NCBI GenBank assembly: GCA_030018495.1
Contig: JASEFS010000003.1
Span: 1-64,000, forward strand
Length of the DNA stretch: 64,000 nt
Direction of reading: 5' to 3'
From: Deltaproteobacteria bacterium
GTDB lineage: Bacteria; Desulfobacterota; Desulfobaccia; Desulfobaccales; 0-14-0-80-60-11
A program made the position numbers and the translations under genes. Of the stretch, positions 12,506 to 24,681 are shown one piece after another; position 1 is the first letter of the stretch; the number at the start of each line of letters is the position of its first letter. Under the pieces are notes generated by a model. The model did no database searches. It saw nothing but the letters and a program-made list of their open reading frames with translations, and had not been told where the DNA came from.

Positions 12506-12970
12506 TCAAGCCACCCGAAGAAACCTCCCCCATCTCCAGGAACCCGGCAGCGTATACTTCATCACCTGGCGCTGCCGGGGTGGCCAACTTCTCTCCCCCG
12601 ATGCACCACTGCATTGGATGCCCTTCTTTATTGGGATGATAAAAAATGGCGGGTGTATGTGGCAGTCATTATGCCTGACCATGTCCACCTCCTGGCCCAG
12701 CCACTCCCCAGTCCTCAGGGCGGGGCTTTCAACCTGGCCGAGATAATCCACAGTGTGAAAAGGTTCAGCACTCACCAAATCAATAAATACCGGGGCGGCC
12801 ATGGCTCCCTCTGGCAGGATGAACGCTATGATAGAATTGTCCGGGATGATGCGGAATTCCTGGAGAAATGGAACTACATCAGGAGCAATCCAGTGAAAGC
12901 CGGTCTGGCTGAACACCCCGGAGATTACCCCTGGCTCTATGAGCGGGGCCAGGAAAAGGGGCACAGGTGA
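12495..12970 (+). pseudogene. Frameshifted REP-associated tyrosine transposase (RAYT, IS200-like Y1 fold)
   Basis: The N-terminal part (RRNLPHLQEPGSVYFITWRC) is in one frame up to about 12600. The remainder (DALLYWDDKKW, MPDHVHLLAQP with the HUH His pair, KRFSTHQINKYRG, LWQDERYDRIVRD, YIRSNPVKAGL) is in another frame to the TGA near 12970. Together they make one standard RAYT of about 155 residues with a frame break near 12600, most easily explained by a small deletion there. These enzymes mobilise REP palindromes, and REP-like GGCACAGGCGTCCCGCCTG elements flank it on both sides. Presumably inactive unless recoded. Confidence 0.8.
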
Positions 12971-13180
12971 GGACACCTGTGCCACCAGGCTCTCTTGATT
13001 ATTGTTGACTTGCTTTGCTCTTGAGACTTTGTTAGCATGTGATAGGGGGAGAAAAAATCCGCAACCTTATTCCCCTTTTGAATTTATTAAACCAAAACAA
13101 TCGGCGCAGACATTCAAGTAACAGAGCAAGATGCCAAATAACAAATAGCCCCGGTGGCACAGGTGTCCTCACCTGTGCTC
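12955..13180. repeat. Pair of REP-like palindromes downstream of the RAYT
   Basis: GCACAGGTGAGGACACCTGTGC at 12960-12981 and GCACAGGTGTCCTCACCTGTGC at 13157-13178 are near-perfect palindromes with inverted centres. They bracket a stretch with no gene. The second one overlaps the 5' side of the AT-rich gene at 13196. Confidence 0.8.
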
Positions 13181-13195
13181 TATGTAGGAAACATA

Positions 13196-13858
13196 ATGGT
13201 AGATTTAATAGATGATGATAAATTGACCCCAAGAGATAAAATTGAAATTGCCTTTCAGGCTGGTCTTCAATTAATCCCTTGTGGATTAGGAGGAGCACTT
13301 TCAAGCATATATTTTGGAATAAAACAAGAAAAGCGGTTCAAAAGAATTGAACTTTTTTATTCTGAAGTTGCAAATGAATTAATAAAATTAAAGGAAAATG
13401 ATTTAAAGGAAATTAGAGATAGAATTGACTCTTTAAATATTTATGAAAAAGAATCTCTCTCTGCAATTATTGAGGAATTAAACGATAAAATTGAGAGGGA
13501 GCACATATTTATTAAAATAACGTATTTCAAGCAATATTTCTTAAATATATTAAAAAATCCAAACTTCCATGATGAATTTGATGAAAAAAAATATTTTCTT
13601 AATATTATTAGTTCAATGACTATAATTGAATTTAATGTCTTAGCATTTCTCTATACTCAAAAAGAAAAAGTAAACGTTGGGGATATACCGATGGGAAAAG
13701 TTGATCCCTTCGCAATAATTGGAGCTGTCGAAAGGTTGAAATCTTTTGGGTTTATAAAGTCATACCCAACCTATAGTTCTCTTGCTGGTGATTTATTTAA
13801 GGAACAAATACAAATAAGTTCTTTTGGGCTGAAATTTGGCAGACTATGTCTCCACTGA
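13196..13858 (+). CDS. AT-rich orphan protein of unknown function
   Basis: 220 aa from ATG 13196 (preceded by TAGGAA). Base composition is strikingly AT-rich compared with every neighbour, and lysine/isoleucine codons dominate (AAA, ATT, AAT), which suggests recent transfer. The N-terminus has a short hydrophobic stretch (LQLIPCGLGGALSSIYFGI, about residues 21-39), then long charged helices (ELIKLKEND, EESLSAIIEELNDKIE). The C-terminal third looks like a winged-helix-like fold (MTIIEFNVLAFLY ... AVERLKSFGFIKSYP) by eye only. I do not recognise the family. It sits between REP elements and a dCMP deaminase. Confidence 0.6.
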   Translation: MVDLIDDDKLTPRDKIEIAFQAGLQLIPCGLGGALSSIYFGIKQEKRFKRIELFYSEVANELIKLKENDLKEIRDRIDSLNIYEKESLSAIIEELNDKIEREHIFIKITYFKQYFLNILKNPNFHDEFDEKKYFLNIISSMTIIEFNVLAFLYTQKEKVNVGDIPMGKVDPFAIIGAVERLKSFGFIKSYPTYSSLAGDLFKEQIQISSFGLKFGRLCLH

Positions 13859-13867
13859 GTATCAACC

Positions 13868-14470
13868 ATGCGACCATCCTGGAATGAATACTTCATGCTC
13901 ATCGCCAAGCTGGTGAGCACCCGGAGCACCTGCAACTCCCGCCCCACGGGCGCGGTGCTGGTGAAGGAGCGCCAGATCCTGGCCACGGGGTACAACGGCA
14001 GTATGCCGGGCGCGCCTCACTGCATCGACCAAGTGATGCCCGACGGCAGCCCCTACTGCCACCGGCGGGCCTTGCAGATCGCGGATATGGACAAGTACAA
14101 CTTCTGCCGGGCCTCCCACGCCGAAGCCAACGCCATCGCCCAGGCGGCCAAACACGGCATCGCCATCAAAGGGGCGAGCCTCTACGTCACCCTGGAGCCC
14201 TGCTACGTCTGCATCAAGCTCCTGGCCACCGCGCAGATCGAGCGGGTCTTCTTTGAGCTCTCCTACGATTCCCGGGACGAAGTCAGGGACAAATACTGGA
14301 AACAGGCCGTGGAGGAGGCGGGCTTCAAGGAGTACCGGCAGCTTGCCATCACCCCCGAAGCCCTGGCCTTTGTGCTGCCGAATCTCAAGCAGGTGACTTC
14401 GACCAGGCGGCTGCCCGCCACCGAGAGCGTCAGCGAGCGCCGCCTTATCGGCGCGGTGGAGTCGGATTAA
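13868..14470 (+). CDS. Deoxycytidylate (dCMP) deaminase family protein
   Basis: Zinc-dependent deamination of dCMP to dUMP for dTTP synthesis. 200 aa. The catalytic zinc site is seen as SHAEANAI (His, Glu proton shuttle) and LEPCYVCIKLL (two Cys), with the family's Cys/His-rich second site (HCIDQVMPDGSPYCHRRAL) between strands. The C-terminal ~50 residues (VTSTRRLPATESVSERR) extend beyond the core. ATG at 13868 is 7 bp after the AT-rich gene's stop. It resembles ComEB-type enzymes. Confidence 0.9.
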   Translation: MRPSWNEYFMLIAKLVSTRSTCNSRPTGAVLVKERQILATGYNGSMPGAPHCIDQVMPDGSPYCHRRALQIADMDKYNFCRASHAEANAIAQAAKHGIAIKGASLYVTLEPCYVCIKLLATAQIERVFFELSYDSRDEVRDKYWKQAVEEAGFKEYRQLAITPEALAFVLPNLKQVTSTRRLPATESVSERRLIGAVESD

Positions 14471-14714
14471 GCGCTGGCGCGGCAATTTCGATATTGGTAT
14501 GGTGTTCCGGAAATCGGGCAGCCCACAAAATCTCTTGAATTATCAATGCATTTGTGCTTATCATAGGAACATAACCTATGGGCACAGAGGAGAGAGCAAC
14601 GCCCGCTTGCTGAGTTAACGAGTCTCGGGGGAGATTCTTGGAGGCGCTCGGCTTGGCCGAAACGGCCGTCTGAGCCCTAACGCACCGGCCTGAACCGATC
14701 TATCACCGAAAACT

Positions 14715-16964
14715 GTGAGCCGAAACAACGCCACCAAAAAGGGTGCCAATTCCCGCAAAGGGAAACAGAAGGCCTCGCCGGAAACCCTTGAGCCTGCGTC
14801 CTGGCAGCGGCGCCTGGGCCAGGAGATGGCCGCGCTGCTGCTTCTGGGGCTGGGGGTGTTCTGTTTTTTGGCCCTGATCACCCATAATACCGAGGACGCT
14901 TGGGGCCTCCTGTCGGTGTGGTCCGCTCCCGGTGTGCACAACGGCGCGGGGAAGGCCGGGGCCGTGGCTTCTGGCGCCCTGATTTGGCTGCTGGGTTTGG
15001 CCGCGTTCTGGACGCCCCTGATTTTTGTGGGCCTGGCCTGGCAGTCCCACCGCGCCGGCCTGGAAGAGCTCCGCTGGCTCCAGGGGCTGGCCGGAGCCGG
15101 GGTCCTGGTGGCCAATTCCGGCTTGCTGGCCCTGGTGCGGCCGCGGCTTCTTTGGGACAGCGGCTGGATTCATACCGGCGGCCGTCTCGGCGACCTGGCG
15201 GCCGTTAATTTGACCGGACTGCTGAACCGCCCCGGCGCATCCCTGGTACTGATTCTGCTTCTGCTCGTTGGTTTTATGGGCGCCACTCGGCTTTCTTATG
15301 CAGCCCTGTTAAGCCTCATCGGCCGGCAACTCAAACAGGCCTGGTTTCTGCTGCGGCAGCCGCGGCAGGAATGGGAGCCCGTCCCCGACCTGCCGCAGCA
15401 AGGCAGGGCCAGACAGCCGCTGATCGCCAAACCTCGCACTTTGGCCGATGAACCCGCGATCTCCCCGACCCCTCCGACAGGGGAGGCCGCGGCCGAGGCG
15501 GCCGCGCCCGCCCGGCGCAAGGCCGCGTCCGGCGGGAAATTCTCTCTTCCGCCCCTCGACCTCCTGGACCCGCCCGCACCCTGGAATCAGCAGGCGCAGG
15601 AAGGCCAGATGGTGGCCCAGGCCGAAAAGCTGGAGGACACCCTGCGCCATTTCGGGGTGGAGGGCAAAGTCACCGCCATCATTCCCGGCCCGGTGGTGAG
15701 CCGCTTTGAGTTGGAGCCCGCGCCGGGGGTCAAAATCAGCCGGGTGACCAATCTCGCCGATGACCTGGCCCTGGCCCTGAAAGCCCTGTCCATCCGCATT
15801 GTGGCCCCGGTGCCCGGCAAGGCGGTCATCGGCATCGAGGTGCCCAATCCCAAGCGCCAGGTAGTGGCCCTCCGGGAAATCCTGTCCGATTCAGCCTATC
15901 AAAAATCCGCCTCCCGGCTCACCATCGCCCTGGGCAAAGACATCATGGGCATGCCGGTGGTGACCGACCTGGCCCGGATGCCCCACCTTCTCATCGCGGG
16001 CGCCACCGGCAGCGGCAAGAGCGTGGGGCTCAATGCCATGATTCTCAGCATCCTCTACAAGGCCACCCCTGAGGAGGTGCGGTTTCTCCTGGTGGACCCC
16101 AAGCGCATCGAGCTTTCCACTTACGAAGGCATCCCGCATCTGCTGCATCCCGTAGTGGTGAGCCCCAAAGAGGCCACCACCGCGCTGCACTGGACGGTCA
16201 TGGAGATGGAGCGGCGCTATGCGCTTCTGTCCGATATGGCGGTGCGCAATATCGACAATTACAATCAGAAGGTCCGGACCCTCAAGCCGGGACCCGGCGA
16301 GAGCAAGGACGATTTGCCCCGGCCCATGCCCTATATCGTGGTGGTCATCGACGAGCTGGCCGACCTGATGTTGGTGTCCTCCCGGGACACGGAAGAATAC
16401 CTCATCCGGCTGGCCCAAAAAGCCCGGGCATCGGGCATCCACCTCCTGGTGGCCACCCAGCGTCCTTCCGTGGACGTCATCACCGGCCTCATCAAGGCCA
16501 ATTTCCCCACCCGGGTTTCCTTCCAGGTGTCCTCCAAGGCCGATTCCCGGGTCATCCTGGACTTCGTGGGAGCCGAGCGCCTGCTGGGCATGGGCGATAT
16601 GCTCTTCATCCCCCCCGGCACCTCCCGCCTGAAGCGCATCCACGGCGCCTTTGTCACCGAGGACGAGGTGGTGCGGGTGGCGGAATTCCTCAAAACCCAA
16701 GCCGCGCCGGAGTTCGAGCCGGGCATCACGGAGATGAAGGAAAAAGAGCAGGAAGCCGAGGAGCTGGGCGACAAGGATGAGAAATACCAGGAGGCCGTGG
16801 AGCTGGTGGCCGAAACCCGCAACGCCTCCATTTCCATGCTCCAGCGCCGCCTGCGCATCGGCTACAACCGGGCCGCCCGCATCATCGAAATCATGGAGAA
16901 AGAGGGCCTGGTGGGCCCCTCCGACGGCGTCAAAGCCAGAGAAGTGTACGTTCCCCGCCGCTGA
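14715..16964 (+). CDS. ftsK: DNA translocase FtsK/SpoIIIE
   Basis: Septal DNA pump that clears chromosome termini and activates dif recombination. 749 aa from GTG 14715. The N-terminus carries about four hydrophobic segments within residues 35-200, then a Pro/Ala-rich linker (~230-285). The motor has Walker A GATGSGKSVGL (about residue 431) and Walker B YIVVVIDELADLM. A C-terminal winged-helix gamma domain (SMLQRRLRIGYNRAARIIEIMEKEG) reads KOPS. The start has no clear Shine-Dalgarno, but an upstream CCGAAAACT motif resembles the tails of the heptamer arrays. The 14471-14714 gap shows no gene. Confidence 0.95.
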   Translation: MSRNNATKKGANSRKGKQKASPETLEPASWQRRLGQEMAALLLLGLGVFCFLALITHNTEDAWGLLSVWSAPGVHNGAGKAGAVASGALIWLLGLAAFWTPLIFVGLAWQSHRAGLEELRWLQGLAGAGVLVANSGLLALVRPRLLWDSGWIHTGGRLGDLAAVNLTGLLNRPGASLVLILLLLVGFMGATRLSYAALLSLIGRQLKQAWFLLRQPRQEWEPVPDLPQQGRARQPLIAKPRTLADEPAISPTPPTGEAAAEAAAPARRKAASGGKFSLPPLDLLDPPAPWNQQAQEGQMVAQAEKLEDTLRHFGVEGKVTAIIPGPVVSRFELEPAPGVKISRVTNLADDLALALKALSIRIVAPVPGKAVIGIEVPNPKRQVVALREILSDSAYQKSASRLTIALGKDIMGMPVVTDLARMPHLLIAGATGSGKSVGLNAMILSILYKATPEEVRFLLVDPKRIELSTYEGIPHLLHPVVVSPKEATTALHWTVMEMERRYALLSDMAVRNIDNYNQKVRTLKPGPGESKDDLPRPMPYIVVVIDELADLMLVSSRDTEEYLIRLAQKARASGIHLLVATQRPSVDVITGLIKANFPTRVSFQVSSKADSRVILDFVGAERLLGMGDMLFIPPGTSRLKRIHGAFVTEDEVVRVAEFLKTQAAPEFEPGITEMKEKEQEAEELGDKDEKYQEAVELVAETRNASISMLQRRLRIGYNRAARIIEIMEKEGLVGPSDGVKAREVYVPRR

Positions 16965-17024
16965 TTTGCTGTCCCGAATTCAAGTTTCAGAATTCCCCCA
17001 AAAATTTAATCCTTAACTATTTTA

Positions 17025-17056
17025 ATGTAAACCATGCTTAATTGATTGGTTGACAA
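17025..17056. promoter_or_regulatory. BirA-type biotin operator
   Basis: Inverted half-sites ATGTAAACC (17025-17033) and GGTTGACAA (17048-17056) separated by 14 bp, close to the known BirA operator TTGTAAACC-N14-16-GGTTTACAA. A TTTAAT at 17021-17026 could be the -10 box of a promoter overlapped by the operator. The second half also contains TTGACA with GATAAC 17 bp on. The position, directly before bioB, fits biotin-dependent repression by biotinyl-AMP-BirA. Confidence 0.85.
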
Positions 17057-17087
17057 TTGTCTGGCGGTAGGAGATAACTTGTCAGCC

Positions 17088-18080
17088 ATGCACTATTCGG
17101 ATTGGGAAGAGATTTTTGGCTTAAGTTGGGCCGAACTGTGGCCCTGGCTGGGAAAAGCCAGCCGGGCCAGGGAAGCCTATTTCGGCCGCCGGGTGAGCCT
17201 TTGTGTCATCATCAACGCCAAGAGCGGCCTGTGCTCCGAGGACTGCGCCTTTTGCTCGCAAGCCGCCACCTCCAAAACAGAGGTTGCCAAGTACCCCCTG
17301 CTCTCCAAGGAAAGGTTGGTGGACGCGGCGCGAGCAGCTCACGCCCAGGGCGCAGCCCGGTTCTCCATCGTCACTTCGGGTAAAGGGGTGGTTTCCGTCA
17401 GAGAACAAGGCGAGATTCTCGCCGCGGTGGCCGCCATCCGGGAAGCCGCGCCCATCCGCGTCTGCGCCTCCCTGGGTTTGGCGGACCGCTCATTCCTTGA
17501 GGAATTGCAGGCCGCGGGGCTGTATCGCTTCCATCACAACCTGGAAACCGCGGCCTCCTTTTATCCCCGGATCTGTTCAACCCATGCGTATCAGGACCGG
17601 GTGGCCACCATCGCCGCGGCCAAAGACGCGGGCCTTAAGGTCTGCGTGGGGGGAATTTTTGGCCTGGGCGAAACCGTGGCCCAGCGCTATGAAATGGCTG
17701 AGGCTATAAAAGAATTGGGAGTTGACGCCATTCCCCTCAATTTCCTGCACCCCCTGCCGGGCACCCGGCTGGCGGACCGGCCCTTGCTGTCGCCCCTGGA
17801 GGCCCTGAAAATCATCATCGCCTTCCGCCTGATGTTCCCGGACAAGACCATCATTATCTGCGGCGGGCGGCAGCCGACCCTGCGGTCGCTGGCCCCTCTC
17901 GTCTTTGCGGCCGGGGCCAACGCCCTCATGACCGGGGACTATCTGACCACCAAGGGCCGCCTGCCGGAAGAGGACCGGCACATGCTGGCGGATATTGAGT
18001 TAGAGTTGGATATCGGGGAAGGGGACCAGGGGCCGACGGCCCCTGCCCCCTCCCCCGAACCCCCTCCCCCAACCCCGTAA
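17088..18080 (+). CDS. bioB: Biotin synthase
   Basis: Radical-SAM enzyme that inserts sulfur into dethiobiotin. About 330 aa. The SAM cluster motif reads CSEDCAFCSQ (about residue 48). Further family marks are YHHNLETA-like RFHHNLETAASFY, GGIFGLGET, and IPLNFLHPLPGT, which are followed by a short extra acidic/Pro-rich C-terminal tail. ATG 17088 begins MHYSDWEEIF; a TTG at 17079 has better spacing to AGGAG (17069-17073), so the true start may be three codons earlier. First gene of bioB-bioD-bioF-bioH-bioC. Confidence 0.96.
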   Translation: MHYSDWEEIFGLSWAELWPWLGKASRAREAYFGRRVSLCVIINAKSGLCSEDCAFCSQAATSKTEVAKYPLLSKERLVDAARAAHAQGAARFSIVTSGKGVVSVREQGEILAAVAAIREAAPIRVCASLGLADRSFLEELQAAGLYRFHHNLETAASFYPRICSTHAYQDRVATIAAAKDAGLKVCVGGIFGLGETVAQRYEMAEAIKELGVDAIPLNFLHPLPGTRLADRPLLSPLEALKIIIAFRLMFPDKTIIICGGRQPTLRSLAPLVFAAGANALMTGDYLTTKGRLPEEDRHMLADIELELDIGEGDQGPTAPAPSPEPPPPTP

Positions 18081-18140
18081 GGAAGGGGTTGGGAGGGGAG
18101 CTTGAGGGGAGGGCAAGTGATTTGCTATCCCTTAAAAAGT

Positions 18141-18893
18141 ATGATGCTGCCAACTTTACCAAAACTCAGGGGCCTCTTCGTCACCGGCACTGACACCAAT
18201 GTGGGTAAAACCTGGGTGGCCGCGGGGTTGACGACGATTTTGCGCCAAAGGGGAGTCAAGGCAACCTATTTTAAACCCATCCAGAGCGGCTGCCGCGAGG
18301 AGGCGGGCCGCCTGGTGCCCACGGACGCCGGGCTGGCGAAAGAACTGGCAAGTCTACCGGAATCGCTGGAAGTACTCACGCCCGTCTGCCTGCGCCTTCC
18401 CCTGGCCCCCGGAGTGGCCGCCGGGCAGGAGGGGAAAAGCATCGATTTGGAGGCCGCGGCCGCGGCCTTGCGGGCGCTGGCCGGGCGCTACGATTTCCTG
18501 GTGGTGGAAGGCGCCGGTGGCCTTTATGTGCCCTTGGTCGGTACGGAATTCCTGGTTCTCGACATGATCCGCTGGCTGGGCCTGCCTCTCCTGGTGGTGG
18601 CCCGCGCGGGTCTGGGGACTATCAACCATTCAGCCCTCACCGTCAAGGCGGCGCAGCAGGCAGGAATTTCCGTGGCCGGGGTCGCCATCAACCGCTATCC
18701 TGCCAAGCCCTCTTTGGCCGAACAGACCAATCCAGGGGTGATAGAAGCGCTCACCGGCGTGCCTATCCTGGGACTTATCCCGGAAATTGCAGATCTGGAC
18801 ACTCCGGCGGGTCGGGCGCGTTTTCTTGCGGCGCTGGGGGAAATATGCTCACAGCCGGCTTGGGAGGAAGTTTTCGGAACCGCGGCGACTTGA
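18141..18893 (+). CDS. bioD: ATP-dependent dethiobiotin synthetase
   Basis: Forms the ureido ring of dethiobiotin from DAPA, CO2 and ATP. About 250 aa. P-loop GTDTNVGKTW at the N-terminus, KPIQSG, and the VVEGAGGLYVPL motif are diagnostic. I take ATG 18141 (MMLPTLPKLRG). A GTG at 18117 directly after GAGGGGAGGG is a strong alternative that would add eight residues. The end of the gene lies 16 bp before bioF. Confidence 0.95.
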   Translation: MMLPTLPKLRGLFVTGTDTNVGKTWVAAGLTTILRQRGVKATYFKPIQSGCREEAGRLVPTDAGLAKELASLPESLEVLTPVCLRLPLAPGVAAGQEGKSIDLEAAAAALRALAGRYDFLVVEGAGGLYVPLVGTEFLVLDMIRWLGLPLLVVARAGLGTINHSALTVKAAQQAGISVAGVAINRYPAKPSLAEQTNPGVIEALTGVPILGLIPEIADLDTPAGRARFLAALGEICSQPAWEEVFGTAAT

Positions 18894-18909
18894 AAGAACC
18901 TTAGCACGC

Positions 18910-20097
18910 ATGACTGAACACGAATTCGCCAGGCTGGCGGCGGAAATGGCGGCCCTGGAGGCCCGGGCCTTGAGACGGCGGCTCACGGCCATCGATGAAG
19001 TATTGCCGGGAGGCCGGGTGCGGGTGGGCGGCCAAGTCCTGTTAAACCTCTCGTCCAATGATTACTTGGGCCTGGCCCAGGACTCCCGCCTCGTTGCGGC
19101 GGCTCAGGCTGCCGCGGAACATTGGGGAGTCGGGGCCGGGGCCTCCCGCCTGGTCACCGGGCATCTGGCCTTGCACGAAGCCGTGGAAGCGAAGCTGGCG
19201 GAATTTAAGGGCACCGGGGCCGCGGTTATCTTCAGCACCGGCTACATGACCAACCTGGGGGTGATTGCCGCGCTGGTGGGGCCGGGGGATCTGGTCTTTG
19301 GCGACCGCCTCAACCACGCCAGCATCTATGACGGCATCAAGCTCTCGGGGGCTGAACTCCGGCGCTTTCCTCATCGGGACATGGACCGCCTGGAAAACTT
19401 GCTCAAAGACGCGCCGGCAAAAAGAAAGCGGCTGATTATCACTGATTCCGTCTTTTCCGTGGATGGAGACCTGGCGCCGCTCAAAGACCTGGTGGAGTTG
19501 AAAGAACGTTACGGAGCTCTGTTGATGGTGGACGAGGCCCATGCCACCGGGGTTTTGGGACCCCGGGGCGCGGGCTTGGCGGAAGCCTTGGGTCTGACCG
19601 CCGGGGTGGACGTGCACATGGGCACCTTTTCCAAAGCTTTGGGCTCCCTGGGCGGCTATGTCGCAGGAGAACGGCGGCTGATCGACTACCTGCACAATAA
19701 GGCCAGGGCTTTCATTTATTCCACGGCCCTGCCGCCGCCGGTGCTGGGAGCCATTGACAAAGCCCTGGACATCGTGGCTAAGCATCCGGAAAAGCGGCAT
19801 TACCTCCTGGATCAGGCGGAAATTTTCCGTCATGAGCTCACAATGGCGGGCTTTGATACTTTGGGGAGTGAAACCCAGATTATTCCGGTGCTTGCAGGCG
19901 ACAACCCCCGGACCCTGGACTTCGCCGCCCGCCTGCGGGAGGAAGGCCTGATGGCGGTGGCGCTGAGGCCCCCCACCGTGCCCGTCGGGAAGGCCCGGGT
20001 GCGTTTCTCCCTGTCTGCGGCGCACTCCGTCCAGGATTTGACTCGCGCCAGGGAGACCATCGTCCGGGTGGGTCGGGGCATGGGCCTGATTTTATGA
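18910..20097 (+). CDS. bioF: 8-amino-7-oxononanoate synthase
   Basis: PLP enzyme condensing pimeloyl-ACP/CoA with alanine. 395 aa from ATG 18910 (MTEHEFARLAAEM). A longer frame upstream would overlap bioD by over 100 bp and is rejected. Motifs: NLSSNDYLGLA, GAGASRLVTG, FGDRLNHASIYDGI, VDEAHATG, and the PLP lysine in GTFSKALGSLGG. The final bases overlap bioH by ATGA, implying translational coupling. Confidence 0.96.
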   Translation: MTEHEFARLAAEMAALEARALRRRLTAIDEVLPGGRVRVGGQVLLNLSSNDYLGLAQDSRLVAAAQAAAEHWGVGAGASRLVTGHLALHEAVEAKLAEFKGTGAAVIFSTGYMTNLGVIAALVGPGDLVFGDRLNHASIYDGIKLSGAELRRFPHRDMDRLENLLKDAPAKRKRLIITDSVFSVDGDLAPLKDLVELKERYGALLMVDEAHATGVLGPRGAGLAEALGLTAGVDVHMGTFSKALGSLGGYVAGERRLIDYLHNKARAFIYSTALPPPVLGAIDKALDIVAKHPEKRHYLLDQAEIFRHELTMAGFDTLGSETQIIPVLAGDNPRTLDFAARLREEGLMAVALRPPTVPVGKARVRFSLSAAHSVQDLTRARETIVRVGRGMGLIL

Positions 20098-20792
20098 CCC
20101 ACCTGGTCCTGTTGCACGGCTGGGGCGCCACCGGCGCGGTTTGGCGGCGCCAGGCGGAGGCTTTGGGGAAAACCTGCAACATACACTCCCCGGACATCCC
20201 GGCCTGGAACGCTGCCTGGATACAGGATTTTTTGGGAAAGCTCCCCTTGCATCGCACGGTGGCTGTGGGCTGGTCCCTGGGCGGGATGCTGCTCTTGGAA
20301 GCCCTGGCTTGCAGCCGGCAACAACTGGCCGGCCTGATATTGACGGGAGTTCCGGCGGTTTTTTGTCGGCAGGAAGACCATCCCTGGGGCCAGCCCCCTG
20401 CCGCGGTGCGGGCCATGCGCCGGGGATTGAAGATGAATGTCCGTAAAGTTCTGGAAGATTTTGCCGGAGCCTGCCTGGCGGCCCAAGAGGCTGAATTCAA
20501 AGACGAGGTGAAGGCCCTGTTCGCCTCGGATGCCGCGGCAGATCATCTCGCCGCGGGCCTGGATTATCTGCTGGCCGCGGATTTGCGAAGCAGGCTGCCC
20601 AAAATTGCCAACGAGCCGGTTTTGGTGCATGGCGATATGGACGCCATAGTTCCGGCGGATCAGGCCGTTTATTTAAGCAAGCGCCTGCCCGGCTCCCGGC
20701 TGATTTTGCTGCCCGGCGTCGGCCACCTGCCGTTTGTTACGCAATGGTCGAGGTTTAATGAAATTTTAATAGAAACATTGGAAGCAGAATAA
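20094..20792 (+). CDS. bioH: Pimeloyl-ACP methyl ester esterase-like alpha/beta hydrolase
   Basis: Likely removes the methyl ester from pimeloyl-ACP methyl ester, the step between BioC and BioF. 232 aa. Oxyanion-side HGWGATG at the N-terminus, nucleophile elbow GWSLGG (Ser about residue 62), acid DMDAIVPAD and catalytic His in PGVGHLPF. The ATGA overlap with bioF and the bioC neighbour support a BioH/BioG-type role over a generic hydrolase. The exact subfamily name is inferred from context. Confidence 0.85.
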   Translation: MTHLVLLHGWGATGAVWRRQAEALGKTCNIHSPDIPAWNAAWIQDFLGKLPLHRTVAVGWSLGGMLLLEALACSRQQLAGLILTGVPAVFCRQEDHPWGQPPAAVRAMRRGLKMNVRKVLEDFAGACLAAQEAEFKDEVKALFASDAAADHLAAGLDYLLAADLRSRLPKIANEPVLVHGDMDAIVPADQAVYLSKRLPGSRLILLPGVGHLPFVTQWSRFNEILIETLEAE

Positions 20793-20835
20793 CGGGGGTG
20801 ATCTCCCCCCAATTCCTCTGCCAGCACGTTAATGC

Positions 20836-20886
20836 GGGAACACAGGCATCTTGCCTGTGAAGCACAGGCTGGAAGCCTGTGCTCCC
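20836..20886. repeat. REP-like double palindrome between bioH and bioC
   Basis: Two adjacent palindromes: ACAGGCATCTTGCCTGT and GCACAGGCTGGAAGCCTGTGC. Same family as the elements at 12358, 23910 and 26946. Confidence 0.8.
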
Positions 20887-20947
20887 GGTCTTTTGGAAGA
20901 GGGACAGAGATTTACGATCCTGACATAGTCCCCAAAATCAAAGAACT

Positions 20948-21733
20948 ATGCATACCAAGCACGGCATCCGACGAAATTTTGCCCGGCGGGCGGCCACCTA
21001 TGACGCCCATGCCCGGGTGCAGCGGCTTATGGCCGATGAACTCCTGCGCCTGATCGGTGACGCAGTGACCCAGGCCCAAAAAATTTTAGAGATCGGCTGC
21101 GGCACCGGCTATCTGACCAGGGCCTTACGCTGCCTGAATCCTCAGGCCTGGCTGGTGGCGGTGGATCTGGATGGGAGGCTGATTCGAACCGCCAGGAATA
21201 AACTGAACGGCGACCACCGCACCACCTGGCTGGTGGCCGACGGCGAGACCATGACCAGAGGCGCATTCAATCTGATCATCTCCAACTCCACTTTCCAGTG
21301 GTTCTGCCAGCCGGGCGAAACTCTGAAAACATGTGCAGAACGCCTGACTCCGGGAGGCACGCTGGCTTTCGCGGCCATGGGCCCCCGGACTTTCCACGAA
21401 CTGGGCGCCTCGCTCAAAATTGCCGAGGCCGGGCGCGCAAGCCCCGTCGATATTCCCGCGGCCGGTTTTTTAGGCCGGGATGCTTGGGAGGACTTGCTTA
21501 AGCAAGCGGGCTTCGTCGAGGTCTGCACCGCCGGCCGGTTACTGGTCCTTGACTTTCCTTCGGTGCGGGACTTCCTCAAATCCATCCAGGCCACCGGGGC
21601 CACCAACCCTCACCCCCGGCCCTTTTCTAGCCGCGTGTTTCAGGCCATGCTGGCCGCATACCAGGAGCGCTTCGCCAAGAACGGCTCTATTCCCGCCTCC
21701 TATGAACTCATATGGGCCCTGGCCCGGAAGTAA
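20948..21733 (+). CDS. bioC: Malonyl-ACP O-methyltransferase
   Basis: SAM-dependent methyltransferase that starts pimelate synthesis by methylating malonyl-ACP. 261 aa. The N-terminus (IRRNFARRAATYDAHARVQ) is the BioC signature. SAM motif I is EIGCGTGYLT, then AVDLDGRLI and SNSTFQWF, with PGGTLAFAAMGPRTFHEL and ATGATNP near the C-terminus. Separated from bioH by a 155-bp REP-containing gap, but still most likely part of the BirA regulon by readthrough. Confidence 0.93.
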   Translation: MHTKHGIRRNFARRAATYDAHARVQRLMADELLRLIGDAVTQAQKILEIGCGTGYLTRALRCLNPQAWLVAVDLDGRLIRTARNKLNGDHRTTWLVADGETMTRGAFNLIISNSTFQWFCQPGETLKTCAERLTPGGTLAFAAMGPRTFHELGASLKIAEAGRASPVDIPAAGFLGRDAWEDLLKQAGFVEVCTAGRLLVLDFPSVRDFLKSIQATGATNPHPRPFSSRVFQAMLAAYQERFAKNGSIPASYELIWALARK

Positions 21734-21896
21734 ATGGGCCGGGAAAAGTCTTCGACATAAATTTGCAGGCGAATTTGTGAGAAATTTCTGAAAATGTGGT
21801 AAAAATAATTTTTCGAACGCATTCACTCTTAACTAGCTGGGGCGGCTTCGCAAAGCCGACACCTTTTGCATAGAGGACACAAGGCGCATCTAAGAC

Positions 21897-23777
21897 ATGT
21901 CTGAGTTGCTCGCAGATCAGCCGGGAGAGCGCCGGCTTTTTTTAGGAAATGAGGCCATTGTGCGGGGGGCTCTGGAGGCCGGCGTGAGACTCGCGGCCAC
22001 CTACCCGGGCACTCCGGCCTCTGAAATCGGGGACCGCCTGTATGTCGTTTCCCGGCAAACGGACCTTTACTTCGAGTATTCCACCAATGAAAAAGTGGCC
22101 CTGGAAGTGGCGGCCGGGGCCGCGGCTTCGGGGTGGCGGGCTTTGTGCTCCATGAAGCACGTGGGCCTGAATGTGGCCGCGGACGCGCTCATGACCCTGG
22201 GATATGTGGGTGTCAAAGCAGGCATGGTCATCGTCAGCGCCGACGACCCGTCGCTCTTTTCCAGCCAGAACGAGCAGGACAACCGCTATTACGCCAAATT
22301 GGCGGGCCTCCCCATGCTGGAGCCGGCCTCGCCCCAGGAAGCCAAGGACATGACCAGGGCGGCCTTCGAGCTCTCGGAAGAACTGGGGCTGCCCGTCATG
22401 CTGCGTACCACCACCCGCATCAACCACACCCGGGGCGCGGTGACCCTGGGACCATTGCCGTCAGCGCCGGGTAAAGCCGGGCGCTTCCAGAAAGACCCCT
22501 TCAATTTGGTGATGGTGCCCGCGGTGGCCCGCAAGGCCCATGCCAGGCTGGTGGAAAAGTATGACAGGGCCAGGGAGCAGGCTGAGGCTTCGCGGTTCAA
22601 TACCATAACCGGTGAAGGCCCATGGGGCATCGCGGCCAGCGGCGTGGCCGCGGCCTACGTGCAGGACGCCCTCCTGGAGTTGGGCCTTAAGGATAAGGTG
22701 ACGTTCCTGAAACTTGGTTTTACCCATCCGCTGCCCGCAAAGCTCGTAGGGGAGTTTTTGGCCCGGGTGGAAAAAGTCCTGGTGGTGGAGGAGCTGGAGC
22801 CTTTTTTAGAGGAGCATATCAAGGCAGTTGCTCAAGAGAGCGGCCTCACCCTGCCCATTCACGGCAAAGGCCGGGAGCTGTTCTCCCGCCTGTACGAGTA
22901 CGACCCGGCCCTGGTGCGCGGGGTGGTGGCCCGATATTTCGGGGTTCCCGATGAACCCGGGAAGGCTTTGGCTCCGGCCGGGATTTTCGGGCAACCTTTG
23001 CCGGACCGGCCCCCCAATCTTTGCCCGGGCTGCCCGCACCGGGCCATGTATTACGCCGTCAAAATCGCCTTGCAGGAGCTGGGGGTGGAGGGGATTTTCC
23101 CCACGGACATCGGCTGTTACACCCTGGGGCTGCTGCCGCCGCTGTCCATGGCGGATTTTCTCATCTGCATGGGCTCGAGCATCACCACCGCCTGCGGCAT
23201 CGCCCGGGCCACGGGCCGGAAAGTGGTGGCCTTCATCGGCGACTCCACCTTTTTCCACGCCGGCCTCACAGGCTTGGCCAATGCGGTGCACAACAATCAT
23301 GATGTGCTCCTTATTATTCTGGATAACGGCACCACCGCCATGACCGGCCACCAGCCTCACCCGGGGGTCACCCTGACGCCGCCCGACTATCCGGGGCGGC
23401 CCATTGATATCGCCGGGGTGGTTAAGGCCCTGGGCGTGGAGCAGAGCCGGGTGGTGAACCCCTTTAAATACAAGGAATCTTTGGCGGCCACCAAGGAGGC
23501 CATCGCCGCCCGCGGCGTCAGGGTGCTCATCTCCCAGGCCCCTTGCCACCTTTACGTGCAAAGAATCAAAGGCAAAAAGTCCAAGGCCCGCTTCCAGGTG
23601 GTGGACGCGTGCGGCGACTGCCGCCACTGCCTGGACTACTTCGGCTGCCCGGCCATGTATGTGAAGCCCGATGCCGGTGTCTCCCAAATGTTCATTGACC
23701 ATGACCTTTGCGCCGGCTGCGCCTTTTGCGTCCAGTTTTGCGAGTGCATCCGGCCGGTGAAAGGCAGTGCGCGGTAG
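21897..23777 (+). CDS. iorA: Indolepyruvate ferredoxin oxidoreductase, alpha subunit
   Basis: Thiamine-diphosphate subunit of IOR, which oxidatively decarboxylates aryl 2-oxoacids to aryl-CoA while reducing ferredoxin. 626 aa. N-terminal pyrimidine-binding domain (GNEAIVRGALEAGV ... ATYPGTPASEI); TPP domain with CPGCPHRAMYY and GDSTFFHAGL ... DNGTTAMTGHQPHPG. C-terminal ferredoxin domain with CGDCRHC and CAGCAFCVQFC clusters. Its partner iorB is 256 bp downstream. The paaK at 10956 could handle related aryl acids. Confidence 0.96.
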   Translation: MSELLADQPGERRLFLGNEAIVRGALEAGVRLAATYPGTPASEIGDRLYVVSRQTDLYFEYSTNEKVALEVAAGAAASGWRALCSMKHVGLNVAADALMTLGYVGVKAGMVIVSADDPSLFSSQNEQDNRYYAKLAGLPMLEPASPQEAKDMTRAAFELSEELGLPVMLRTTTRINHTRGAVTLGPLPSAPGKAGRFQKDPFNLVMVPAVARKAHARLVEKYDRAREQAEASRFNTITGEGPWGIAASGVAAAYVQDALLELGLKDKVTFLKLGFTHPLPAKLVGEFLARVEKVLVVEELEPFLEEHIKAVAQESGLTLPIHGKGRELFSRLYEYDPALVRGVVARYFGVPDEPGKALAPAGIFGQPLPDRPPNLCPGCPHRAMYYAVKIALQELGVEGIFPTDIGCYTLGLLPPLSMADFLICMGSSITTACGIARATGRKVVAFIGDSTFFHAGLTGLANAVHNNHDVLLIILDNGTTAMTGHQPHPGVTLTPPDYPGRPIDIAGVVKALGVEQSRVVNPFKYKESLAATKEAIAARGVRVLISQAPCHLYVQRIKGKKSKARFQVVDACGDCRHCLDYFGCPAMYVKPDAGVSQMFIDHDLCAGCAFCVQFCECIRPVKGSAR

Positions 23778-24033
23778 TCAGTGGTTAGTGGTCAGCGGCC
23801 GGTCTGATAAATTTTGGGCGGGCGGTGCCAGCCCTACGACCCGTATAAAGTTTAGGGGGAACCCAAACCTTTTTTGAAAAATCAAGGTGAAGAAAAAGTA
23901 AAGATTGGTGGCACAGACTCCCGCCTGTGCAAATAATGCGGTTATAGAAGAAATTCAAATAGATATCTTCTAGCAATGTTTTGCTGGAGGACAAAATTTC
24001 AAATTATCGTCAGTGGTCGTAAGGTCTTAGGTG
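23778..24033. other. iorA-iorB spacer with repeat remnants
   Basis: Begins with TGGTTAG/TGGTCAG-type heptamers straight after the iorA stop, then a GGGCGGGCGGTGCCAGCCC element and, at about 23910, GGCACAGACTCCCGCCTGTGC (REP-like). The rest is AT-rich without a believable gene. Confidence 0.6.
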
Positions 24034-24681
24034 ATGAGCACTACAGAAAACAGAAAACAGAAAACAGAAAACGTACGCATCTATCTCACCGGCGTCGGCG
24101 GACAGGGGACTTTGCTGGCCAGCCGTCTGCTGGGGGAAGCCGCGCTGGCCGCAGGATTTGAGCCCCTGGTCAGTGAAACCCACGGCATGGCCCAGCGGGG
24201 GGGCATCGTGGTCTCCACGGTGGTGTTGGGGGACCTGAAAAGCCCCATCATTTCTCCGGGCGAGGCCGACGTGCTTCTGGGCTTCGAGGCCCTGGAGACC
24301 TTCCGGGCCTTAAACTTCTGTAATCGCCGGACCCTGGTCATCGCCAACACCGGGGTCATTCCGCCCTATACTGTAGCCGTCGGCCAAGCCCAGTATCCGC
24401 CGGTCAGTCGGCTGGTGGCCCTCATGAGCGAAGCGGTGGACTCCCTTCTGGCCTTTGACGCGGGAGTTTTGGCCCGGGAGGCCGGCAGCCCTCTGGCGGT
24501 AAACATGGTGCTTTTAGGCGCGCTGGCGGCCACTGATTATCTGCCCCTTTCCCGGGAATCGCTCCTGGAGGTGATTCGGACCCGCACCAACCCCAAATTT
24601 TTAGACGCCAATCTTACGGCTTTCCAGAAGGGCGCCGAGGTTGCCGAAAATCCCGGCGGGTGGCTTGGAGCAATCCCGTGA
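24034..24681 (+). CDS. iorB: Indolepyruvate ferredoxin oxidoreductase, beta subunit
   Basis: Small (gamma-domain type) subunit of IOR. About 215 aa. GVGGQGTLLASRLLGEA at the N-terminus, ETHGMAQRGGIVVSTV, and LLGFEALE are family-typical. The N-terminal residues ENRKQKTEN are read directly from a CAGAAAA heptamer array (24044-24071). No later ATG/GTG/TTG allows the conserved VRIYLTGVGGQG to be complete, so the repeat appears to be translated. ATG 24034 is preferred to GTG 24031. Confidence 0.94.
   Translation: MSTTENRKQKTENVRIYLTGVGGQGTLLASRLLGEAALAAGFEPLVSETHGMAQRGGIVVSTVVLGDLKSPIISPGEADVLLGFEALETFRALNFCNRRTLVIANTGVIPPYTVAVGQAQYPPVSRLVALMSEAVDSLLAFDAGVLAREAGSPLAVNMVLLGALAATDYLPLSRESLLEVIRTRTNPKFLDANLTAFQKGAEVAENPGGWLGAIP
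24044..24071 (+). repeat. Heptamer array inside the 5' end of iorB
   Basis: Four exact CAGAAAA units beginning 10 bp after the iorB ATG. Because 7 is not a multiple of 3, gain or loss of one unit would shift the frame. Confidence 0.85.

Follow-up and report, generated by a model that had tools for sequence, protein, structure and literature searches.

BirA of Escherichia coli is an HTH-bearing Group II biotin protein ligase that also acts as a biotin-dependent repressor, and its dimerisation and DNA binding upon accumulation of biotinoyl-AMP are established (PMC4016012). BirA of Bacillus subtilis is likewise a Group II ligase. Its binding to operator DNA requires biotin as well as ATP, and its operators (bioW, yuiG and yhfU) differ in sequence and spacing from that of E. 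coli (PMC4016012). BirA regulons have been described to occur in the gamma and delta subdivisions; for alpha- and betaproteobacteria they are described as apparently nonexistent, the DNA-binding domain of BirA having been lost (PMC5343134). In 2004 candidate BirA sites before bioB were published for six delta-proteobacterial genomes, with the consensus TTGTAAACC-[N14/15]-GGTTTACAA. Several of the right halves given there read GTTgACA, and birA is reported to lie apart from the bio genes outside Desulfovibrio (PMC545781).

The locus analysed here is situated in the first 64,000 nucleotides of contig JASEFS010000003.1 (GCA_030018495.1), from a member of the Desulfobaccales; this whole stretch is referred to as the window. 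An initial annotation of this DNA had proposed a BirA-type operator, consisting of two half-sites with a 14-bp gap, in front of a biotin operon. Both half-sites are indeed present as quoted (17025-17033 and 17048-17056), in inverted arrangement around the gap at 17034-17047, and 16 of their 18 letters are shared with the N14 form of the published consensus, the departure being one letter per half-site. The site is located just 5' of the biotin synthesis genes, its end lying 31 bp before the ATG of bioB at 17088. The following features were assigned.

17025 to 17056, forward strand: predicted BirA operator, ATGTAAACC and GGTTGACAA, 14 bp apart (consensus match, genome scan, relatives)
17050 to 17055, forward strand: putative -35 box TTGACA, lying in the right half-site (GGTTGACA in 18 of 18 operator-bearing family rows)
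17068 to 17078, forward strand: putative extended -10 TAGGA-GATAAC at a 17-bp spacer (conserved box TRGGN-GATNYT)
17085 to 17087, forward strand: predicted transcription start with a leader of about 3 nt, placed from the -10 position
17088 to 18080, forward strand: bioB, biotin synthase, likeliest start ATG 17088, alternatives TTG 17046 and TTG 17079 (TIGR00433, 359.5 bits on 17079-18080)
18141 to 18893, forward strand: bioD, dethiobiotin synthase; start taken by eye at the in-frame ATG 18141, the ORF beginning at TTG 18102 (TIGR00347, 166.2 bits, above cut-off)
18910 to 20097, forward strand: bioF, 8-amino-7-oxononanoate synthase; start taken by eye at the in-frame ATG 18910, the ORF beginning at TTG 18787 (TIGR00858, 470 bits, above cut-off)
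20094 to 20792, forward strand: bioH-like esterase (TIGR01738, 107.4 bits, below cut-off 206.95)
20948 to 21733, forward strand: bioC, malonyl-ACP methyltransferase (TIGR02072, 181.5 bits, just below cut-off 184.95)

The operator of the window is a further case of the published delta-proteobacterial candidate sites, with which it shares the consensus, the position before bioB, the TTGACA of the right half and a birA located apart from the bio genes, from a lineage outside the six genomes listed (PMC545781). The short distance between promoter and bioB start is the addition of the present analysis. Unlike a mirrored site, the left half carries A or T in the window's family (18 rows) and never the C that would mirror TTGAC.

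Open reading frames and family models gave the gene order bioB, bioD, bioF, bioH-like, bioC. Since the BioH and BioC scores are below the NCBIfam cut-offs, both names lean on context. The five genes thus stand in the order originally annotated, but the operon had also been called complete, which is too strong: bioA sits on contig C61 (565.7 bits, above cut-off), unlinked to bioB, so that the pathway is incomplete in bioBDFHC. The bioO operator of E. coli has similar gapped half-sites and is placed between the divergent bioA and bioBFCD. The window's genome differs in this respect, bioA being unlinked and the 500 bp before it holding no operator. Neither was an operator found before birA, in the bioH-bioC gap or in the bioB-bioD gap; 58-99 of 100 shuffles equalled the best scores in these four places (11-12/18).

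A dispersed palindromic repeat with C/G runs (18015-18119) takes in the 3' end of bioB together with its stop codon. It has 21 matches in the genome at E <= 1e-5, itself included, and folds as a strong hairpin with the UAA in a loop (-68.6 kcal/mol, z -2.8). The last ~25 residues of BioB look repeat-derived, since relatives contain short stretches matching them at several places. Elsewhere in the window, the ORFs 12506-12985 (reverse strand) and 13154-13858 (forward strand) both start with MAQVSSPV, which suggests a small inverted repeat.

With one letter in each half off the consensus, the palindrome might be a chance match, leaving the operon outside BirA control. However, a score of 16/18 was reached by none of 200 shuffles of the upstream region, the best of which scored 13. 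The genome searched comprises 3,457,605 bases in 63 contigs and is 99.97% complete. In it the 16-base core at N14 matches one place with 1 mismatch, which is the window site, and five others with 3 mismatches, while a backwards control pattern was found at 9 places. At N15 the core matched 8 places, all with 3 mismatches, and the control also 8. Apart from the window site, the 3.46-Mb genome therefore has no sequence within 2 core mismatches at either spacing. A looser model, which accepts N13-16 and three different bases at position five, gave the window site 17/18, against 15/18 for the runner-up in a 464-kb genome sample. This single strong site differs from the three BirA sites described for B. 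subtilis (PMC4016012).

The position of the site before bioB is also kept among relatives (genome counts include the window's own genome). Of 59 genomes, 54 gave a match to bioB, and in 47 the match was strong; the seven genomes with weak matches (best E 4.5e-8 to 1.5e-4) are not counted as having the gene. An operator (at least 14/18, equalled by at most 1 of 200 shuffles) precedes bioB in 25 of 28 loci, i.e. the 30 loci fetched minus two with almost no upstream sequence (L028, L038). When 17 further strong bioB matches were added, it was found in 32 of 45 genomes (at least 16/18, 0/100 shuffles, within 500 bp) with the looser model, which like its threshold was chosen after inspection of the earlier upstream scans. 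The exact degenerate pattern occurs in 16 of the 59 whole genomes, once in each and including the window's own, and its backwards control in none; 15 of the 16 matches lie just before bioB. Uniqueness, conserved position, the empty control and the co-occurrence with the HTH domain of BirA (see below) together make a chance match very improbable.

The one exact match elsewhere (G055; L091:1501-1530, C1:180068-180097) is a perfect BirA-type palindrome, TGTTAACC-N14-GGTTAACA, in a genome that has no clear bioB; the sole ORF of at least 100 aa at that locus resembles a peroxiredoxin by eye. In genus g10 of the sister family (L034, L035 and L036) the operator has the N15 form TTGTCAAC[CT]...AGTTGACAA. 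About 7 bp past it these three loci carry TACAAT, TAGAAT or TAAAAT, followed by a long leader, and the promoter there seems to overlap the operator in a different way.

From the half-sites a bifunctional BirA had been predicted for this genome, with inspection of birA for an N-terminal HTH as the check and an HTH-less ligase as the refuting outcome. At the level of domains the prediction holds. The genome contains one match to the biotin protein ligase family, on contig C14, with an ORF of 346 aa. It combines an N-terminal HTH_11 domain (PF08279, residues 25-75, 51.4 bits against a cut-off of 25) with the catalytic domain PF03099 (74.2 bits) and BPL_C (PF02237, 36.8 bits), both above their cut-offs, the architecture of a Group II ligase. 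The NCBIfam repressor-domain model TIGR00122 scored 58 bits, below its cut-off of 70, which counts against the assignment; this cut-off is a model threshold and no defining trait of Group II ligases, and the same stretch exceeds the HTH_11 cut-off in Pfam. The protein aligned to 1bia, the E. coli BirA chain, from residue 36 on. Its alignment to 4dq2, the Staphylococcus aureus ligase (PMC4016012), runs from residue 34 on.

Among relatives the operator tracks this HTH domain. Where BirA bears the HTH, the operator was found before bioB in 27 of 30 genomes; where it does not, in 0 of 8 (Fisher p = 3e-6, kinship uncorrected). With the window's own family and the sister family set aside, the figures are 7/9 and 0/7 (p = 0.003, kinship again uncorrected). 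The HTH was called present from how far the alignment reached, in a few cases also from Pfam; absence was judged by Pfam in seven of the eight genomes and for G041 from a 261-aa frame only. A second, divergent ligase in G044 was judged by reading, without a domain scan. Three HTH-bearing genomes missed the operator criterion: G024 has a 14/18 site farther away, at -530 (1/200 shuffles), G048 scored 14/18 (1/100 shuffles), and in G032 no operator was found before bioB. Seven genomes in which birA is missing, fragmentary or frameshifted (G014, G015, G016, G019, G030, G043, G045) were left out of this comparison; five of them have the operator by criterion. The HTH-less ligase that would have refuted the prediction does occur in a relative from the window's family: BirA of G006 (L069:1486-2310, reverse strand; bioB locus L015) has 274 aa and no HTH, and its bioB has no operator.

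Regulators of the BioR and BioQ type replace BirA in other lineages (PMC5343134), and such a regulator could bind the site; alternatively, the operon could be under riboswitch control. Either is highly unlikely here. The motif is the BirA consensus described for delta-proteobacteria (PMC545781) and is missing from all eight HTH-less genomes judged, and an Rfam scan of 14000-24500 found no family at gathering score.

With a probability of about 0.92, the palindrome at 17025-17056 would thus be a biotin operator through which an HTH-bearing BirA represses bioBDFHC at the -35 box. From the computed site, HTH-bearing ligase and co-occurrence we infer binding, biotin dependence and the place of the promoter as follows. 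Once the biotin acceptor proteins are satisfied, BirA would accumulate biotinoyl-AMP, dimerise and bind both half-sites. The right-hand subunit would then cover the putative -35 box, so that RNA polymerase is excluded and the operon stays silent. Under biotin shortage the dimer would leave the operator, allowing transcription of bioBDFHC. A transcription start within ~5 nt of ATG 17088 is a separate step with a lower probability, somewhat more likely than not.

The place of the promoter follows from comparison within the window's family, which comprises 22 genomes: 18 with the operator, G006 without it, two without readable upstream sequence (G008, G018) and one without a clear bioB (G017). 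The 18 rows are related, L029 and L031 being nearly identical downstream of the operator, and do not represent 18 independent events. All 18 contain GGTTGACA and, in the right half-site, a perfect TTGACA, a conservation which suggests that repression acts at the -35 box. Little information is contained in the operator spacer or in most of the columns flanking the site. What stands out is a single base next to the operator at each end and a box 12-24 bp past the right half-site, with conserved columns T 15, R 17, G 15, G 14, N, G 16, A 17, T 12, N, Y 17 and T 17. The consensus of an extended -10 element is TRTGN-TATAAT. Measured from TTGACA, a spacer of 17 bp puts the box in the place of such an element; position -13 is then free, and A at -11 and T at -7 are kept. 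In all 18 rows an in-frame ATG follows 30-34 bp past TTGACA, so transcription would start ~1-5 nt before it. This ATG was the one used, although L012, L014, L017 and L026 have a further in-frame ATG and several rows an in-frame GTG or TTG.

Shine-Dalgarno pairing of -3 kcal/mol or better at -15 to -4 was found in none of the 18 rows. By the same criterion it was found at 49% of 190 ORF starts of the own genome, at 28% in a control stretch and at five of seven sister-family loci, whose starts sit farther from the operator. Compared with what a leaderless bioB would show (a -10 some 7-11 bp before the start and no normal Shine-Dalgarno sequence), the spacing fits in 18/18 rows, SD-like letters occur farther back in 8/18, and the -10 of the window itself is weak: its hexamer GATAAC ends in C, against T in 17 of the 18 rows. 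A consensus promoter scan at the locus returned reverse-strand matches only. Before the starts of the own genome a crude profile showed a clear Shine-Dalgarno peak, and a genome-wide -10-like peak, the sign of leaderless messages, was absent in the 464-kb sample with crude gene calls. G006, which lacks the operator, carries TGATATAAT 10 bp before its bioB ATG; the predicted compact layout from promoter to start outlives the operator there.

The same BirA operator could also be combined with an ordinary leader. Transcription would then start farther upstream, with the role of Shine-Dalgarno sequence falling to the conserved GGNGA, ~15-20 nt before the ATG, or to the AGGAG 5 nt before TTG 17079. 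With the pairing window widened to -21, eight of the 18 rows pair at -6 kcal/mol or better, and the own-genome sample shows some excess of SD-like letters over background at -16 to -19 (5-9 against ~2 per position; 174 starts). On the other hand, GGNGA has no fixed middle base (C in six of 18 rows), the box keeps T, A and T bases that are needless for a Shine-Dalgarno sequence and needed for an extended -10, and the 16 bases upstream of the operator hold no other conserved promoter; the absence of pairing at normal spacing points the same way. An ordinary leader is accordingly a possibility of some weight, about one in three by our estimate, and the lesser one. The reading to which we lean, with some reserve, is that operator and bioB promoter form one merged element in the window's family, with a start within ~5 nt of the ATG and a near-leaderless bioB message.

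A near-leaderless message would make ATG 17088 the bioB start. The initial annotation had held that the promoter position fixes this start, naming no codon. That reasoning is plausible; the promoter spacing favours ATG 17088 over TTG 17046 and TTG 17079, and in a protein alignment four of five relatives have Met in the column of ATG 17088. The first Met of L012, however, aligns with TTG 17079, and this codon has its AGGAG, so that bioB probably starts at ATG 17088, a likely choice that falls short of settled. A literature search by title and abstract start, with subscription journals mostly outside its coverage, returned no leaderless bio operon and no merged -35 box and operator with a short leader.

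The operator and the HTH-bearing ligase provide whole-genome support for BirA control of biotin synthesis in a little-studied lineage of sulfate reducers. That one member of the family lacks both the BirA HTH and the operator supports the view that the two are one functional unit. If the near-leaderless reading is true, bioBDFHC would be an operon under metabolite control with a message that begins at its start codon, and promoter spacing could settle start codons that are over-extended by ORF callers.
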